This document shows positions 2,904-41,851 of a DNA stretch of 64,000 bases, one piece after another. Within the stretch, counting starts at the first letter, position 1. Every line of letters starts with the position of its first letter. The notes under the pieces are model-generated. The model saw only the letters and a list, made by a program, of their open reading frames with translations. It was not told where the DNA came from and searched no databases. The stretch spans positions 546,001-610,000 of the forward strand of contig NZ_CP027218.1 of NCBI RefSeq assembly GCF_004124275.1, read 5' to 3'. The translations under genes were made by a program, and so were the position numbers. The stretch comes from Pseudomonas sp. DTU12.3. GTDB taxonomy: Bacteria > Pseudomonadota > Gammaproteobacteria > Pseudomonadales > Pseudomonadaceae.

Positions 2904-3704
2904 TCAGGCGCTACGCACCACACTCATCCGCGAAACCACCGGCAACTTGCCCAGCAGCGCGAAAACCGGCGCGGTCATCTTCAGCCAGAAGTTCGATGCG
3001 TGATAGGCAAACGGCGTGTAATAACCCCAGCCCAATGCCCACACCGCCAGCAATACGCCACCGATGTAATCGTCCTGCCCCCAATGCGCACCCGCCACCA
3101 GGCGCGGCAGCATGAACAGAACAGCCAGGCCCCAGACCGTCAGAAACTGCCCGGCCGTACGGCTGAACACGCCCATGAACAGTGCCCAGATCAGCAGCAC
3201 CGAAGCATGGTCACCGGGAAAGCTCTGGCTCGAGCGATCTTTCACTTCCCAGGTTTTTTCCAGATCCGGGAAGTAATCGCTGATGTGCACGGCACCTTCA
3301 AGCACCATTGACGGACTGCTGTGCTGCCAATCCATATGGTCGGCGAACTTGGAAAACAGTGCGCGAATCACCACCATCAACAGCAGGATCGAAAGAAAAC
3401 CGAAAAAAGCCCGGCGTACGTCAATCGCCTTGAACACCCAGTCGCCCTTGATCAGCAGGGTCAGCAGGATCAGGCCAACGACGATGTCGAACGGACGCAT
3501 ACTTGCAATTGCCCAGATGTGGAGCCATATCGGGTTGCTGGCCAGTGGTGCATTGAGTGAGCGAAACAGCCACTCGTCGAAAATCACACACAGCGAGTTG
3601 CCCGTAGGCCATAACCAGAAAGCCAGTAGCGCTAATGGCACGACGTTGCACAGAACCAGCCGGCCGAGGTTCCACCTTGATTGGAACAAACCCGGATTGT
3701 TCAT
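2904..3704 (-). CDS. PAP2-family membrane lipid phosphatase/phosphotransferase
   Basis: An integral membrane protein of 266 residues with about six hydrophobic segments and the PAP2 catalytic signatures KDRSSQSFPGDHAS and RLVAGAHWGQDD. The two His residues of these motifs are the expected phospho-enzyme and acid/base residues. Such enzymes remove or transfer phosphate on lipids such as undecaprenyl pyrophosphate, phosphatidylglycerol phosphate or lipid A on the periplasmic side. The SFPGDHA form recalls LpxT-like lipid A kinases/phosphatases, but the substrate cannot be read from sequence. It is divergent from hslO with a short shared promoter region. Confidence 0.8.
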   Translation of the reverse strand: MNNPGLFQSRWNLGRLVLCNVVPLALLAFWLWPTGNSLCVIFDEWLFRSLNAPLASNPIWLHIWAIASMRPFDIVVGLILLTLLIKGDWVFKAIDVRRAFFGFLSILLLMVVIRALFSKFADHMDWQHSSPSMVLEGAVHISDYFPDLEKTWEVKDRSSQSFPGDHASVLLIWALFMGVFSRTAGQFLTVWGLAVLFMLPRLVAGAHWGQDDYIGGVLLAVWALGWGYYTPFAYHASNFWLKMTAPVFALLGKLPVVSRMSVVRSA

Positions 3705-3809: not shown

Positions 3810-4712
3810 ATGACCGACCTACCGGATACCGATTTCACCCAACGCTTCATCTTTGATGACAGCGACACCCGTGGCGAACTGGTCGCGCTTGAGCGCAGCT
3901 ACGCCGAAGTCCTCGCCAAGCACCCGTACCCGGAGCCGGTTGCGCAATTGCTCGGCGAACTGATGGCGGCCGCCTCGTTGCTGGTCGGCACCCTCAAGTT
4001 CGATGGACTGCTGATTCTGCAGGCGCGTTCCGAAGGGCCGATCCCGATGCTGATGATCGAGTGCTCCAGCGACCGCGACATCCGTGGTCTGGCGCGTTAT
4101 CACGCCGATCAGATCGCGGCGGATGCGACCCTCGCCGACCTGATGCCGAACGGCGTTCTGGCCCTGACCGTCGACCCGACAGTTGGCCAGCGCTACCAAG
4201 GCATCGTCGATCTCGACGGCGAAACACTGTCCGATTGCTTCACCAACTATTTCGTCATGTCGCAACAGGTTGGCACTCGCTTCAAGCTGTTCGCTGACGG
4301 TCGTCGTGCGCGTGGCTTGCTGCTGCAACAATTGCCGGCAGACCGTTTGAAGGACGAAGAAGATCGCGCCGCCAGCTGGCAGCACATCACCGCGCTGGCC
4401 ACCACCCTGACCGCCGATGAGTTGCTCAGCCTCGACAACGAAACCGTGCTGCATCGCCTCTACCACGAAGAGCAGGTTCGTCTGTTCGATGTGCAGAAAC
4501 TGCGCTTCCGTTGCAGTTGCTCGCGGGAACGCTCCGGCAACGCGCTGGTCAGTCTCGGTCTGGAAGATGCGCAGCAATTGGTGGTCGAACACGGCGGCAA
4601 CATCGAGGTCGATTGCCAGTTCTGCAACGAGCGCTACCTGTTCGATGCCACGGATGTTGCTCAATTGTTCGCTGGCGCAGGCGTGGACACGCCGTCAGAT
4701 ACCCGGCACTAA
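3810..4712 (+). CDS. hslO: Redox-regulated chaperone Hsp33
   Basis: A holdase of 300 residues activated by oxidation. The C-terminal zinc switch is present as C235-x-C237 (FRCSCSRER) and C269-x2-C272 (CQFC), the four cysteines that release zinc and form disulfides under oxidative heat stress. The N-terminal substrate-binding region ([17 protein letters not shown]) matches the family. Start ATG 3810 lacks a strong ribosome site but fits family length (about 290-300). It precedes pckA, with a gap of about 180 bases holding a separate promoter region. Confidence 0.95.
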
Positions 4713-38661: not shown

Positions 38662-38952
38662 ATGGCTGCACTACTGAAAACTACCGATGTGCGCTGCCGC
38701 ATTGATGAGGATTTGAAAGCGCGTGCCACTGAAGTCTTAAACGCTTGCGGGCTGAGCATTAGCGACGCCATGCGACTTTTTCTGCGGCAGGTTGTTGCCA
38801 CTCAGGGGCTTCCCTTCGAGGTGCGAGTTCCATCAGAGAAAACGGCCCGCGCAATGATGGAAGCACGAGAAATCCGTCAGCGTTTCGACTCGATAGACGA
38901 CATGCTGAGGACTGCTGATGGCGAAACCGGAGAAAACGCAAAAACGCGCTGA
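38662..38952 (+). CDS. dinJ: RelB/DinJ-family antitoxin
   Basis: A 96-residue antitoxin. The ribbon-helix-helix DNA-binding domain is the N-terminal part (TDVRCRIDEDLKARATEVLN, then GLSISDAMRLFLRQVV), which is characteristic of DinJ; the C-terminal third (about 60-96) wraps the toxin. A GATGAGGTAATTGAG ribosome region precedes the ATG. The gene overlaps the downstream toxin by 35 bases, giving tight coupling. Confidence 0.9.
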   Translation: MAALLKTTDVRCRIDEDLKARATEVLNACGLSISDAMRLFLRQVVATQGLPFEVRVPSEKTARAMMEAREIRQRFDSIDDMLRTADGETGENAKTR

Positions 38953-39232
38953 TCGGCCTAAACAGTGTGCACAGACTTCTGAATTCAAGAAGTCTTGGAA
39001 TCGTTATAACCGTGCCGGAAGGCGAGACATGAACGACGTCCGGAATGTGATGGCGATGTTGTTCTTGGGGCAGCAACTACCGGCAGAATATCTGGATCAT
39101 GCGCTGACTGGAGATTGGTCTGGATTCCGCGAGTGTCATATCGGTGGCGATTTTCTGATGATTTACGAGAACACACGCCCAGACCTGATCACGTTTGTGG
39201 ATTTAGGGAGCCATTCAGAATTGTTTAAATAA
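38918..39232 (+). CDS. yafQ: YafQ-family mRNA interferase toxin
   Basis: A 104-residue RelE-superfamily toxin cutting mRNA at the ribosome. YafQ-like features are the FKKSWNRYNRAGR basic helix, LPAEYLDHALTGDWSGFRECHI, with the conserved His/Asp and the final FVDLGSHSELFK that carries the His catalytic residue. Start codon ATG 38918 lies inside the antitoxin; a shorter start near 38960 would match E. coli YafQ length (about 92). A terminator follows at 39246-39266. Confidence 0.9.
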   Translation: MAKPEKTQKRADRPKQCAQTSEFKKSWNRYNRAGRRDMNDVRNVMAMLFLGQQLPAEYLDHALTGDWSGFRECHIGGDFLMIYENTRPDLITFVDLGSHSELFK

Positions 39233-39368: not shown

Positions 39369-39776
39369 ATGCCTACCTCATCTCCAGCCCTCACCCCACG
39401 CGAACAACTCGACGCCCCCGAAGCCGGTCGCGTCGCGCTGAAGTTCTTCTTTAACCTCATGGAGCGCTGGGGCTGCAGCGCCGAGCAGCAACGCACATTG
39501 CTCGGTGGCGTCGGCAACACCACCTTCTACAAATACAAACACCTGCCGAACATACGTCTGCCTAACGATACCCTTGAGCGCATCTCTTATCTGATGGGTA
39601 TTCACAAGGCGTTGAGCATCATCTTCAGCAACAGCCGTGAGCGCGCGTACACATGGGTCAGTAGTCCGAACACCGCGGCGCCGTTCAATGGGCAAACGGC
39701 GCTCGATTACATGCTCGCCGGACGCGTGGTCGATATCGCCGATGTGCGTCGCTACCTCGATGGGGTGCGCGGTTGA
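39369..39776 (+). CDS. Xre/MbcA/ParS-type antitoxin of a RES-Xre module
   Basis: A 135-residue antitoxin. Residues about 14-75 form a Xre-like helix-turn-helix and the C-terminal part (FSNSRERAYTWVSSPNTAAPFNGQTALDYMLAGR) is the DUF2384 toxin-binding domain of MbcA/Xre antitoxins. A AGGAGGCGT ribosome site precedes ATG 39369. It is followed by a RES-domain toxin with a four-base overlap. The upstream AT-rich stretch (39270-39368) with GATCATTACGATCGTTCG repeats is the likely operator. Confidence 0.88.
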   Translation: MPTSSPALTPREQLDAPEAGRVALKFFFNLMERWGCSAEQQRTLLGGVGNTTFYKYKHLPNIRLPNDTLERISYLMGIHKALSIIFSNSRERAYTWVSSPNTAAPFNGQTALDYMLAGRVVDIADVRRYLDGVRG

Positions 39777-40453
39777 AGGTGCCAGAGATGGTTGATGTGA
39801 CGTGGCCGAGAGCCTATCGGATCGTCAACAGCAGTTTCCCGCCGATTGCGTTATTCGAAGACGTGCTCGATCCCGAAGACCTGGAAGTTGCCTACGCGAT
39901 TGAAGCGCTGACCAATGATCGCCTGATCGAACAGGCTGGCGTTCTCGCCCGAGTGCGACCTGAAGATCGACTCTCCGGCCCCGGCTCGACTCCGGTGATG
40001 GCTGCGTTTACCCACATCGGCAAACGCAGTCGTTTCTGCGATGGTACCTTCGGCGTTTACTACGCTGCGAGCAGTCAGGCTGCTGCCATCGCCGAGACCT
40101 GTTATCACCAGGAACGATTTCTTGCGGCGACCCAAGAAGCGGATCTTGAATTGACCATGCGGACTTACGTTAATCGGGTGGTTAAACCGCTGCACGATAT
40201 CCGCCACGATCACCCCGAGCTGCACAATCCGGATCCTGAGGCTTATGGGCCGTCTCAGCTATTCGCCCGGCAACTGCGCGAAACCGAGTCGTGGGGACTG
40301 CTCTATAACAGTGTTCGTTTGCCGGGGCATGAATGCGTCGCCGCGTTTCGACCGCCAACCGTTTCGATTCCGAAGCAGGGTAAGCATTTGCGCTATGTGT
40401 GGAGCGCGAGTCAGCAGAAGATTTCGTTTGTGCTTGAGATCAGTCAGGTCTGA
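39773..40453 (+). CDS. RES-domain NAD+-phosphorylase toxin
   Basis: A 226-residue RES toxin that degrades NAD+ and stops growth. Family landmarks are the YRIVNSSFPPIALFED opening, RFCDGTFGVYYAASSQAAAIAETCYH containing the Arg/Glu/Ser core that gives the family its name, and WGLLYNSVRLPGHECVAAFRPP. TTG 39773 overlaps the antitoxin stop; GTG 39779 and ATG 39788 are alternative starts. A hairpin at 40464-40483 follows and is shared with the convergent small gene. Confidence 0.9.
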   Translation: MKVPEMVDVTWPRAYRIVNSSFPPIALFEDVLDPEDLEVAYAIEALTNDRLIEQAGVLARVRPEDRLSGPGSTPVMAAFTHIGKRSRFCDGTFGVYYAASSQAAAIAETCYHQERFLAATQEADLELTMRTYVNRVVKPLHDIRHDHPELHNPDPEAYGPSQLFARQLRETESWGLLYNSVRLPGHECVAAFRPPTVSIPKQGKHLRYVWSASQQKISFVLEISQV

Positions 40454-40463
40454 AACGCAAAAA

Positions 40464-40490
40464 GCCCTCGCATCAGCGAGGGCCTTACAA
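40464..40490. terminator. Bidirectional terminator between RES toxin and convergent small gene
   Basis: GCCCTCGC / GCGAGGGC stem with ATCA loop, flanked by A run on one side and TT on the other. Confidence 0.7.
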
Positions 40491-40496
40491 CGGTGG

Positions 40497-40778
40497 TTAC
40501 ATCAACGGCTTGTCCGGCGGCGCATCCATCACTTTCACCACATCATCGATCAGCGCCTTGCTCAATTCCTGCAGATACTGCGAGGCATAAGCATGAAGAT
40601 CAGGATCGCGCCCGACTGAAGAGTCCGCAGTGAGCAATCGTGAGATGTGAAGCAAGTGGGATGCGTGGGAAAGGGCGGCTTGCACCGGCACACCACGGTT
40701 GGTGCGGAACATCGCTTGATTGGATTGAAATGAAAAGTGGGTGAGGCCGAGTGTTTTCAGATCTTGAGAATGGGTCAT
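40497..40778 (-). CDS. Small DUF3077/DUF6124-like protein under a C4-like leader
   Basis: A 93-residue protein of the small DUF3077/DUF6124 style found in several copies in Pseudomonas genomes and of unknown role: a first helix (PVQAALSHASHLLHISRLLTA) and a second (DLHAYASQYLQELSKALIDDVVKVM). No signal or membrane segment. Its start codon overlaps, by ATGA, the stop of a 24-codon leader ORF (40775-40849), so translation is coupled. The long leader upstream folds like phage C4 antisense RNA, see 40918-41092. The gene lies between two toxin-antitoxin pairs. Confidence 0.7.
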   Translation of the reverse strand: MTHSQDLKTLGLTHFSFQSNQAMFRTNRGVPVQAALSHASHLLHISRLLTADSSVGRDPDLHAYASQYLQELSKALIDDVVKVMDAPPDKPLM

Positions 40779-40849
40779 TTTGCTTCACCTGCAGTTCCAG
40801 TAGGGCGGCGTGAAGTGACCGGGGTTGCTGACGGATCAATGGCTTTCAT
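40775..40849 (-). CDS. 24-codon leader ORF, icd-like
   Basis: Too short for ordinary gene calling: ATG 40849, 24 codons (MKAIDPSATPVTSRRP...), stop overlapping the ATG of the next gene. A good Shine-Dalgarno, GGGAG at 40857-40861, lies 7 bases upstream. The Shine-Dalgarno is inside GAUACAGGGA, which is complementary over 10 pairs to a segment of the upstream structured RNA. This is the same design as phage P1 icd-ant: a short coupled leader ORF whose ribosome site is the target of an antisense RNA. Confidence 0.6.
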   Translation of the reverse strand: MKAIDPSATPVTSRRPTGTAGEAK

Positions 40850-40874
40850 TTGTGAACTCCCTGTATCAAATGAG

Positions 40875-40911
40875 AGCTGCCAATTCGTTATCAGACGAAT
40901 GGGTGGCAGCT
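40875..40911 (-). promoter_or_regulatory. Hairpin between the antisense RNA and its target
   Basis: AGCTGCCA-ATTCGT / ACGAAT-GGG-TGGCAGCT: a 14-bp stem with a GGG bulge and TATCAG loop. It includes the target site a' (40876-40886), so folding of this hairpin would compete with antisense pairing. Confidence 0.6.
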
Positions 40912-40917
40912 ATGCGC

Positions 40918-41092
40918 GGGCTGATAAACCGGAGATACAGGAACCCGGCAGACCCGAAGGTCTCCCACGCACAGCCGCCATTGCACGGTAATGCAGACAC
41001 AAAAAATGCGCCGGCAAACGTGAGTTGGGGCGCTGGTGCGCCTGTATCTTACGCGGGTTATCAGGCCCGGTCGCTGAATTGGCAGCGACGGG
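40918..41092 (-). ncRNA. C4-like structured antisense RNA in the leader of the small gene
   Basis: Read on the - strand. Hairpin I, CGCTG...CAGCG at 41071-41088, has loop and flank GCUGCCAAUUC (rc of 41076-41086), which is complementary over 11 bases to GAAUUGGCAGC just before the leader ORF (rc of 40876-40886). A closing stem pairs GGGCCUGAUAA and GAUACAGG (41041-41068) with CCUGUAUC and UUAUCAGCCC (40918-40941). Inside are hairpins GCGCC/GGCGC, UGCA/UGCA and AGACC-UUCG-GGUCU. The UUCCUGUAUC segment can pair instead with the leader Shine-Dalgarno. Two separated antisense segments against adjacent target sites is the C4 pattern. Ends are approximate. Confidence 0.6.
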
Positions 41093-41233
41093 TTTGACGG
41101 TAGCTTGGGGATTAGCAGGCGCGCAATCGTGGCCAGTAATGGCTTTGCCTGGCTTCTCGTTACAGCAGATTTCTCAGGATTTCCCGCTACATATTTCGTC
41201 GCATTTTCCTGGAAAACGTTTATCGTTTGTTTA

Positions 41234-41248
41234 TACGGCATGGCCGTA
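41234..41248. promoter_or_regulatory. Inverted repeat before RelE-like toxin gene
   Basis: TACGGC-ATG-GCCGTA, 15 bp, 12 bases upstream of the toxin start; a likely autoregulatory operator of this toxin-antitoxin pair. Confidence 0.45.
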
Positions 41249-41259
41249 CAGTGCGATCC

Positions 41260-41577
41260 ATGTATACAATTATCGAAACGGACATTTTCAAGCGTTATGC
41301 CGAAGCCATATGGGATGAGGGTGAGCGCGATGAATTCATAAATTGGCTTGCTGCAAATCCGTTGAATGGTGATGTCGTGCCTGGCAGTGGTGGTATGCGC
41401 AAGGTGCGCTGGACTCGTAGCTGCATGGGTAAACGAGGCGGCGCACGTGTCATTTATTACAATGCGCTTTCTGAAGGCTCGATCTGGTTACTCATTGCCT
41501 ATACCAAGGCAAAGTTTGACGATTTGCCCTTAGCCTTCCTTAAGCAACTGAAGGAGGAAATCAGCGATGGTCGATGA
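41260..41577 (+). CDS. RelE/HigB-family toxin
   Basis: A 105-residue toxin of the RelE superfamily: the KRYAEAIWDEGERDEFINWL helix, GDVVPGSGGMRKVRWTRSCMGKRGGARVIYY core and SIWLLIAYTKAKFDDL match the HigB-like/NadS-partner family. The start ATG 41260 gives the family length; an upstream ATG at 41227 is less likely as it precedes the operator. Overlaps its antitoxin by 11 bases. Toxin-first order is typical of higBA-type systems. Confidence 0.87.
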   Translation: MYTIIETDIFKRYAEAIWDEGERDEFINWLAANPLNGDVVPGSGGMRKVRWTRSCMGKRGGARVIYYNALSEGSIWLLIAYTKAKFDDLPLAFLKQLKEEISDGR

Positions 41578-41851
41578 ACTGGAGCAATTCCAGCAGGACT
41601 TGCTGGAATCTGTACGTCAGATGAAGGCTGGAAAGGCTGCGCGCGTGACTCAAGTGCCGCTATCTGCGGCAGCAGAAGCGCGTGCCAAAGTGGGCGTTTC
41701 TCAAAGTGCGTTTGCCAAACTAATCGGTGTGAGTCTGCGGACTTTGCAGGATTGGGAGCAGGGGCGTAGGCAGCCGACGGGTGCAGCGCAGACTCTCTTG
41801 CGTGTTGCAAGTCAGCATCCTGAGGCATTGCGGGATTTGTATCCTGCCTGA
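41567..41851 (+). CDS. Helix-turn-helix antitoxin, HigA/NadS type
   Basis: A 94-residue XRE-family antitoxin: HTH visible as VGVSQSAFAKLIGVSLRTLQDWEQGRR (residues about 41-68), typical of NadS/HigA repressors with the conserved ending that contacts the toxin. An AAGGAGGAA ribosome site lies inside the toxin gene before ATG 41567. It is followed by a hairpin terminator and then tRNA-Thr. Confidence 0.9.
   Translation: MVDELEQFQQDLLESVRQMKAGKAARVTQVPLSAAAEARAKVGVSQSAFAKLIGVSLRTLQDWEQGRRQPTGAAQTLLRVASQHPEALRDLYPA

Follow-up and report, generated by a model that had tools for sequence, protein, structure and literature searches.

The window, the 64,000-nucleotide (nt) stretch of the Pseudomonas sp. 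DTU12.3 chromosome analysed here, very probably carries on its - strand a chromosomal C4 antisense RNA module, arranged as a1/b1, C4 and a2/b2, ahead of a leader ORF that overlaps a DUF3077 gene by four bases, with C4 predicted to block translation of both. The parts that can be read directly from the sequence are a match to the C4 family, pairing of the C4 segments a′ and b′ with the sites a2 and b2 near the leader start, a copy of these sites upstream (a1/b1) and an ATGA junction between leader and gene; from these we infer silencing, RNase P processing and a role for the protein. C4 is a phage RNA, and in P1 and P7 a single C4 guards a single antirepressor. The window module is not a one-off, being one of 26 C4 loci in its own genome.

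Organization of the C4 module

The first-pass annotation had described a C4-like RNA with a C(UUCG)G loop in a structured transcript, followed by a 24-codon leader with a Shine-Dalgarno sequence and a 93-codon gene sharing an ATGA with it. Our analysis bears out this description: the C4 family match lies well above its curated cut-off (Table 1) and has P1-like geometry, the loop sits within that match, a Shine-Dalgarno-like AGGGAG precedes the leader ATG, and the 318-nt region folds better than shuffled sequences (z -3.2, 1 of 100 shuffles as good), as does the part from C4 to the leader (z -5.4, 0 of 200 shuffles as good). The window match to the c4-a1b1 family (Rfam RF03163) ends 1.1 bits below the cut-off. 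A strict sigma-70 scan at the window locus returned no promoter site. A TTG-type hexamer, a spacer of 17 or 18 nt and a TAnnnT hexamer stand 32–37 nt before the first hairpin in 20 of the 26 own-genome copies, including the window copy; no such promoter-like pair was found in the remaining copies (L018, L020, L023, L026, L033 and L034).

Table 1 Features of the C4 module and its flanks, in window coordinates
Feature	Position	Strand	Evidence or remark
Promoter-like TTGCGC (41121–41126), 18-nt spacer, TACCGT (41097–41102)	41097–41126	-	Directly ahead of the a1b1 hairpins
c4-a1b1 element, two hairpins	41050–41103	-	Rfam RF03163, 45.6 bits, cut-off 46.7
a1 site CTGATAA, complement of C4 a′	41058–41064	-	Changes with a′ in 13 of 13 loci
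b1 site AGATACAGG, complement of C4 b′	41041–41049	-	100% of cells paired, 13 loci
C4 antisense RNA	40899–40985	-	Rfam RF01695, 83.9 bits, curated cut-off 45
b′ loop of C4, TTCCTGTATC	40934–40943	-	Complementarity script
a′ segment of C4, TTATCAG	40921–40927	-	Complementarity script and 13-locus alignment
C4 3′ strand AGCTGCCA, alternative partner of 40875–40882	40904–40911	-	Fold and alignment
a2 site CTGATAA	40888–40894	-	Complementarity script
TGGCAGCT, complement of the C4 3′ strand; alternative hairpin with a2 in its loop	40875–40882	-	
b2 site GATACAGGGA, over the leader Shine-Dalgarno region	40858–40867	-	
Leader ORF of 24 codons in the icd position, stop overlapping the next ATG (ATGA)	40775–40849	-	
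DUF3077 gene of 93 codons	40497–40778	-	Pfam PF11275, 79.8 bits, cut-off 21
Intrinsic-terminator-like hairpin 3′ of the DUF3077 gene	40461–40486	-	1 in region against 0.6 expected (shuffles)
Xre/RES toxin–antitoxin pair	39369–40453	+	Clear
Antitoxin on the other flank of the module	41567–41851	+	Clear
Partner of that antitoxin	41227–41577		RelE, 12.1 bits, below cut-off 27

We propose that a single transcript would begin just before a1/b1. Excision by RNase P, known from P1 and expected to leave a C4 RNA of about 77 nt, would likewise release the window C4 from this transcript. The excised RNA would bind a2 and b2, covering the ribosome site of the leader; as ribosomes that finish the leader would restart at the DUF3077 ATG, a silenced leader would silence DUF3077 too. 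When a1/b1 holds C4, the RNA would be unable to fold or act, and in this bound state the a2 hairpin would sequester the C4 3′ strand, leaving the leader site open. The leader would then be a two-state switch, with a1/b1 as its anti-C4 arm.

Control could instead follow the mode of isrK–orf45–anrP, in which a short, terminated a1b1 RNA would turn translation on and shut-off by C4 would not be the main control. The interval between a1b1 and C4 holds a U6 run (41001–41006) after a GC-rich stretch, the Rfam isrK model (RF01394) matches 41001–41089 at 42.2 bits, and the Salmonella system likewise has a variable coupled short ORF and two structures, as given in the accessible parts of a study (PMC4825925) and a review. 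However, the isrK match remains under its cut-off of 50, a terminator scan found none at the U6 run, and that position holds only U4 in 2 of the 13 aligned loci (see below), so that we regard this mode as unlikely.

Target pairings and their covariation

A script that looks for contiguous complementarity between the a′/b′ segment of C4 and the C4 flanks pairs a′ with both a2 and a1, and b′ with b2 and, over a 9-nt stretch, with b1 (Table 1). Run on P1 as a control, the same script recovers the four annotated C4 sites (a1, b1, a2 and b2) to within one base. The b′/b2 duplex formed by the C4 segment UUCCUGUAUC comprises ten pairs, one of them G–U, exactly as had been proposed for the second of two antisense contacts.

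For covariation we aligned the window locus with 12 of the 17 C4-bearing loci among 20 fetched DUF3077 loci. Five of the 17 (L079, L082, L085, L086 and L087) were judged too divergent and left out of this 13-locus alignment, and C4 over the cut-off is absent from three of the 20 (L073, L083 and L084). At the third position of a′, six loci have A and seven have C, and a1 and a2 carry the matching base (T or G) in 13 of 13; C–G is thus replaced by A–U at a′/a2 in six of the 13, and in the same loci at a′/a1. The covariation scores are equalled by 1 of 500 shuffles for a′/a2 and by 0 of 500 for a′/a1, and they reflect a single column, as one a′/a2 pair alone varies among these loci. Because L072 and L075, apparently close relatives, differ at all three places (a′, a1 and a2), the change probably arose more than once, or modules recombined. 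The two checks that the first-pass annotation had proposed, an Rfam scan and a search for covariation, thus gave a strong C4 match and concerted change in every aligned locus.

The specificity of pairing extends to 101 C4 loci in four sets: 26 from the own genome, 30 from the genus (high-scoring C4s, one per genome, which seem biased to prophages and satellites), 17 beside DUF3077 and 28 from the class. In every set, and for every one of the four pairings, none of 5000 permutations reaches the observed self-complementarity; for the 26 own-genome C4s, 0 of 20000 permutations reach it in any of the four pairings. The b′/b2 contact is weak or not the best for several own-genome C4s (L015, L030 and L033).

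The other antisense contact proposed earlier joined GCUGCCAAUUC (41076–41086) to 40876–40886. It does form 11 of 11 pairs in the window but is poorly conserved, and we reject it as the first specificity segment. Across the 13 loci one pair is lost in eight, another in three and two more in one each, which leaves 90.9% of cells paired without compensating change. GCUGCCAAUUC belongs to the first a1b1 hairpin, outside C4, and the GGCAGC half of 40876–40886 is equally explained by the C4 3′ strand, with 8 pairs and 96.2% of cells paired in the 13 loci. Judged by complementarity and alignment, the true specificity pair is a′ (40921–40927) with a2 (40888–40894).

The leader ORF and its predicted coupling to the second gene

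At the window locus a short ORF lying under a2/b2 overlaps the second gene by ATGA, the arrangement of a P1-type c4–icd–ant module, and its icd-like leader is not peculiar to this locus, since coupled leaders recur in related, genus, class and viral loci. When coupling is taken to mean an ATG–ATGA overlap in which the first ORF stands at roughly +50 counted from C4 and the second spans 60 codons or more, a manual count gives 8 of the 13 related DUF3077 loci, 12 of the 30 genus loci and 9 of the 28 class loci; looser tallies of 11, 16 and 12 for the same three sets include GTG, TTG and short second ORFs. Among the other related loci of the 13, one leader ORF continues beyond the start of DUF3077, another is joined to it in frame and three stop short of its ATG, which speaks against coupling as a general rule.

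In viral contigs, an intervening leader of 24 to 39 codons is present in nine of the 17 C4 loci examined, all of them DUF3077 loci, and absent from the other eight. All nine overlap the DUF3077 start by ATGA and terminate in GG plus two residues, and the remainder of the peptide varies widely, which fits coupling and not a conserved peptide.

A second class of leader encodes a conserved peptide of about 52 codons. In seven loci (L039, L041, L048, L051, L055, L058 and L060) C4 is followed by this peptide and then by a protein of 94–95 codons; the one such protein tested has no Pfam match at E ≤ 1, and by eye its pattern seems to resemble DUF3077. Searching phage records by tblastn, we found the peptide in phiAH14b (E 5e-6) and Phipami28 (E 0.2), in both of which C4 lies directly before it.

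Predicted folds of the leader

The predicted minimum-energy fold of the full 318-nt leader (-121.6 kcal/mol) pairs a1 and b1 with a′ and b′ and places the C4 3′ strand (40904–40911) on 40875–40882 at all eight positions; a2 lies in a loop with six of its seven bases unpaired, and eight of the ten b2 bases are unpaired. This structure is a single minimum-energy prediction with an ensemble frequency of 0.0002. Folded on its own, C4 with the part downstream is predicted to adopt the C4 fold. The alternative pairing of the 3′ strand reaches the script threshold in all 17 loci of the DUF3077 set, in 22 of the 30 from the genus, in 25 of the 28 from the class and in 12 of the 26 from the own genome, with 12.5–14.6% of simple shuffles reaching it as well (for the own-genome loci, at score 16, 12 of 26 compares with 14% of simple shuffles). 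It is weak in P1.

The DUF3077 gene and its neighbours

The product of the second gene had been called DUF3077/DUF6124-like. It matches DUF3077 in Pfam and not DUF6124, which we reject as its family; some related proteins (P0162 and P0170) carry both labels, and a comparison of the two profiles gives E 0.014 and a probability of 3%. The earlier statement that the controlled gene is not an antirepressor holds, in that the protein belongs to DUF3077 and its two PHROGs matches are both to families of unknown function. Control of this gene by C4 is what the order and pairing of the parts suggest.

The first-pass annotation had also placed the module between two toxin–antitoxin pairs. The Xre/RES pair and the antitoxin on the opposite flank are clear, but the putative partner of the latter is a sub-cut-off RelE match (Table 1). 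Also in this region, a RelB/YafQ pair (38662–39232) adjoins the Xre/RES pair beside the C4 module. Such surroundings, and the fit of a tightly silenced small protein, raise the idea of a type I toxin–antitoxin-like pair in which the DUF3077 protein would be harmful and C4 its RNA antitoxin. The window protein, however, has no defence-library match at E ≤ 0.01 and no outstanding match in a fold search, and C4 seems to lie on the same transcript as the gene, neither opposed to it nor separate, all of which makes such a pair quite improbable.

In the surrounding 24 kb, 18 ORFs of at least 240 codons were listed and ten were tested against Pfam. Six are a TonB receptor, a LysR protein, two methyltransferases, an amino-acid permease and a hydrolase; four have no match, and no phage structural family occurs among the ten. 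Elsewhere in the window, 13432–13808 matches the Rfam sRNA P34 at 155.4 bits.

C4 copies in the own genome

Rfam RF01695 gives 26 matches above its cut-off in the own genome, and the a1b1 family also gives 26 at E ≤ 0.001, 11 of them above the cut-off. A DUF6124 domain follows within 400 nt on the same strand for 21 of the 26 C4s; one further C4 has its DUF6124 domain 1445 nt away, split by an insertion with transposase-like sequence between, and one is the DUF3077 locus of the window, so that 23 of 26 lead into DUF6124 or DUF3077 genes. The small ORFs that follow the other three have no Pfam match above the cut-off. Conversely, 21 of the 27 DUF6124 matches in this genome have a C4 within 400 nt; by position, the other six are three tandem second copies, one split by an insertion, one with a1b1 and no C4, and one alone.

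Each of the 26 C4s has a b′ loop of its own, and their a′ heptamers come in 18 versions. When the scores on a2 and b2 are added, 20 C4s rank their own target strictly first among the 26, and for the remaining six at least one other target does equally well or better. As the pairing letters differ from copy to copy, we predict that the modules of a genome are for the most part isolated from each other.

Individual loci show further arrangements. In L018:1-3801 a transposase-like sequence lies inside the DUF6124 gene just 3′ of an intact C4. A DUF6124 match in L035:1-4501 has a1b1 but lacks a neighbouring C4, which would fit loss of C4. The own-genome locus L037:1-4501 has a1b1, without a C4 over the cut-off, ahead of a Bro-N antirepressor-like gene, and the sequence after a1b1 is partly C4-like by eye.

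Distribution across genomes

At E ≤ 0.001, 92 of 99 Pseudomonas genomes contain C4, 91 of them with a match above the cut-off, and DUF6124 and DUF3077 occur in 78 and 76 of the 99, respectively. The number of C4s tracks the combined number of DUF6124 and DUF3077 matches (Spearman 0.94 over 99 genomes), a strong association and not proof, in which the genomes are related, so that events are not independent, a gene matched by both models may be taken twice, and C4 was scored on up to 39 candidates per genome, the eight genomes at this number having at least 39. Neither family is present in any of the seven C4-free Pseudomonas genomes, and the number of C4s ranges from 0 to 4 in the 20 genomes that lack both. 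Of 369 genomes sampled across the class, 24 have C4 and 1 has DUF6124; the own genome is included in both counts.

Other C4 contexts were also seen. A gammaproteobacterial genome of 1.5 Mb has a tandem array of four C4 matches within 1.4 kb of one contig (G359:C9:1700-3092). In five Pseudomonas loci (L046, L047, L049, L050 and L053) C4 directly precedes, without a leader, an antirepressor-like gene, the classical target; this naming follows one member of the group that was tested, in part, against PHROGs.

Modules in viral contigs and in prophage-like and satellite-like records

Related modules are present in prophage-like contigs and in the satellite-like phage record phiAH14b. Searching viral contigs yielded 53 loci, of which 18 (13 DUF3077 and 5 DUF6124) were scanned for C4; all except L136 have a C4 just upstream of the DUF3077 or DUF6124 gene. 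Two viral contigs, L160 and L156, have two C4s about 350 nt apart (at about 3514–3603 and 3867–3955) before one DUF6124 gene, and L160 has an apparent tape-measure gene nearby, named by reading.

With C4 being a phage RNA and so frequent ahead of the same families in viral loci and in a satellite-like record, the window module could be a relic of prophage or satellite immunity in which C4 survives by recency and regulates nothing at present. We consider this very unlikely: the six identified flank ORFs are ordinary metabolic, transport and regulatory genes with no phage structural family among the ten tested, 12 further related loci retain the element, with a′, a1 and a2 changing in concert, and the DUF3077 gene in the window is intact.

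The exact 28-base a′/b′ core of the window C4 recurs in eight viral contigs, all of which are among those that yielded DUF3077 relatives. One of the viral loci, L133, is prophage-like and also encodes repressor-like and integrase-like proteins (names by reading), and the window C4 scores on the a2/b2 of L133 equally to the C4 of L133 itself. The shared core and this score make silencing in trans between chromosome and prophage possible. The main function of the chromosomal C4 could then be immunity, silencing like modules on an incoming prophage or satellite, with the local DUF3077 gene secondary; the C4s of P1 and P7 determine heteroimmunity, according to the available portion of a review. 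Yet several of the core-carrying contigs have the module near a contig end, so that host flank is possible, L133 alone of the 17 viral loci compared matches both a′ and b′ of the window C4, and the local a2/b2 is a full match, compatible with local control. We therefore hold immunity in trans to be possible but doubtful as the main function, and local control of the leader and DUF3077 remains our preferred reading.

More broadly, and as a tentative proposal that we would not yet call probable, Pseudomonas genomes may run C4 circuits in parallel by the dozen, every one of them bearing a distinct two-part address, and so keep a family of small helical proteins silent one copy at a time. The addresses would constitute an immunity code shared with prophages and satellites, and every leader would work in cis as a switch, with a1/b1 disarming C4 and so allowing synthesis of the protein. 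If true, a resident module would silence an incoming one of the same address and tolerate one of a different address. With the C4 device in 26 chromosomal copies, mostly matched to two families almost without literature, the DUF6124 and DUF3077 genes gain a first testable regulator; the copies also provide, within a single cell, a naturally occurring collection of antisense RNAs with different addresses, and they link chromosomal genes to prophage and satellite immunity.

Comparison with known systems

The P1 immI region (c4–icd–ant1/ant2) has the same order as the window module, namely a1, b1, C4, a2, b2, a short ORF and a second gene. There, icd and ant1 share a 4-nt ATGA as the leader and DUF3077 do here, and a′ and b′ are located by the same script rule. 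Counted from the end of C4, the spacing is nearly identical: a2 begins at +1 in P1 and at +5 in the window module, b2 at +30 and +32, and the first ATG at +48 and +50, respectively. The two differ in that the second gene of P1 is the ant antirepressor and that of the window module a DUF3077 gene, in that icd has 73 codons and the window leader 24, and in that the window module lies on a chromosome, where the flank ORFs tested include no phage structural gene.

In the Gifsy-1 isrK–orf45–anrP system of a Salmonella prophage, the available text of PMC4825925 describes a related 5′ element, a coupled short ORF and two alternative leader structures, so that the last two features together have a tested precedent; the orf45 sequence is variable, as stated in the accessible part of a review. 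The window module differs from it in its sub-cut-off isrK match, in having no terminator called at the U run and in a gene that is not an antirepressor. The phage records phiAH14b and Phipami28, satellite-like on our reading of their gene order, resemble the window module: after C4 comes the ORF of a leader-type peptide, which runs into the next gene with an overlap of 4 nt and 8 nt, respectively. In phiAH14b, unlike the window module with its single DUF3077 gene and terminator-like hairpin, the operon extends to a topoisomerase-primase gene.

C4 has been placed in Proteobacteria and phages by Weinberg and colleagues (PMC2864571, as available in part), and the part of PMC4603805 available to us reports C4 and isrK as one transcriptional unit in Burkholderia cenocepacia. 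The one paper found to name DUF3077 (PMC9630843) lists such a gene among the mutations of evolved P. putida. A search of open-licence literature, covering main texts without supplements, returned no paper tying C4 to DUF6124 or DUF3077, and no report of C4 expansion with these two families.

The closest parallel to the copy number seen here is in Acinetobacter baumannii, whose Group 1 C4-like sRNAs have many chromosomal copies, a variable a′ region and an RNA-seq pattern of processing; the available sections of that report (PMC5320573) mention no linked target family, whereas most copies here own an a2/b2 and a DUF6124 or DUF3077 gene. The kind of RNA is already known, and so, from the same sections, is multicopy chromosomal C4. 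What appears new is a self-addressed C4 paired with most DUF6124 and DUF3077 members in this genome and spread over the genus.
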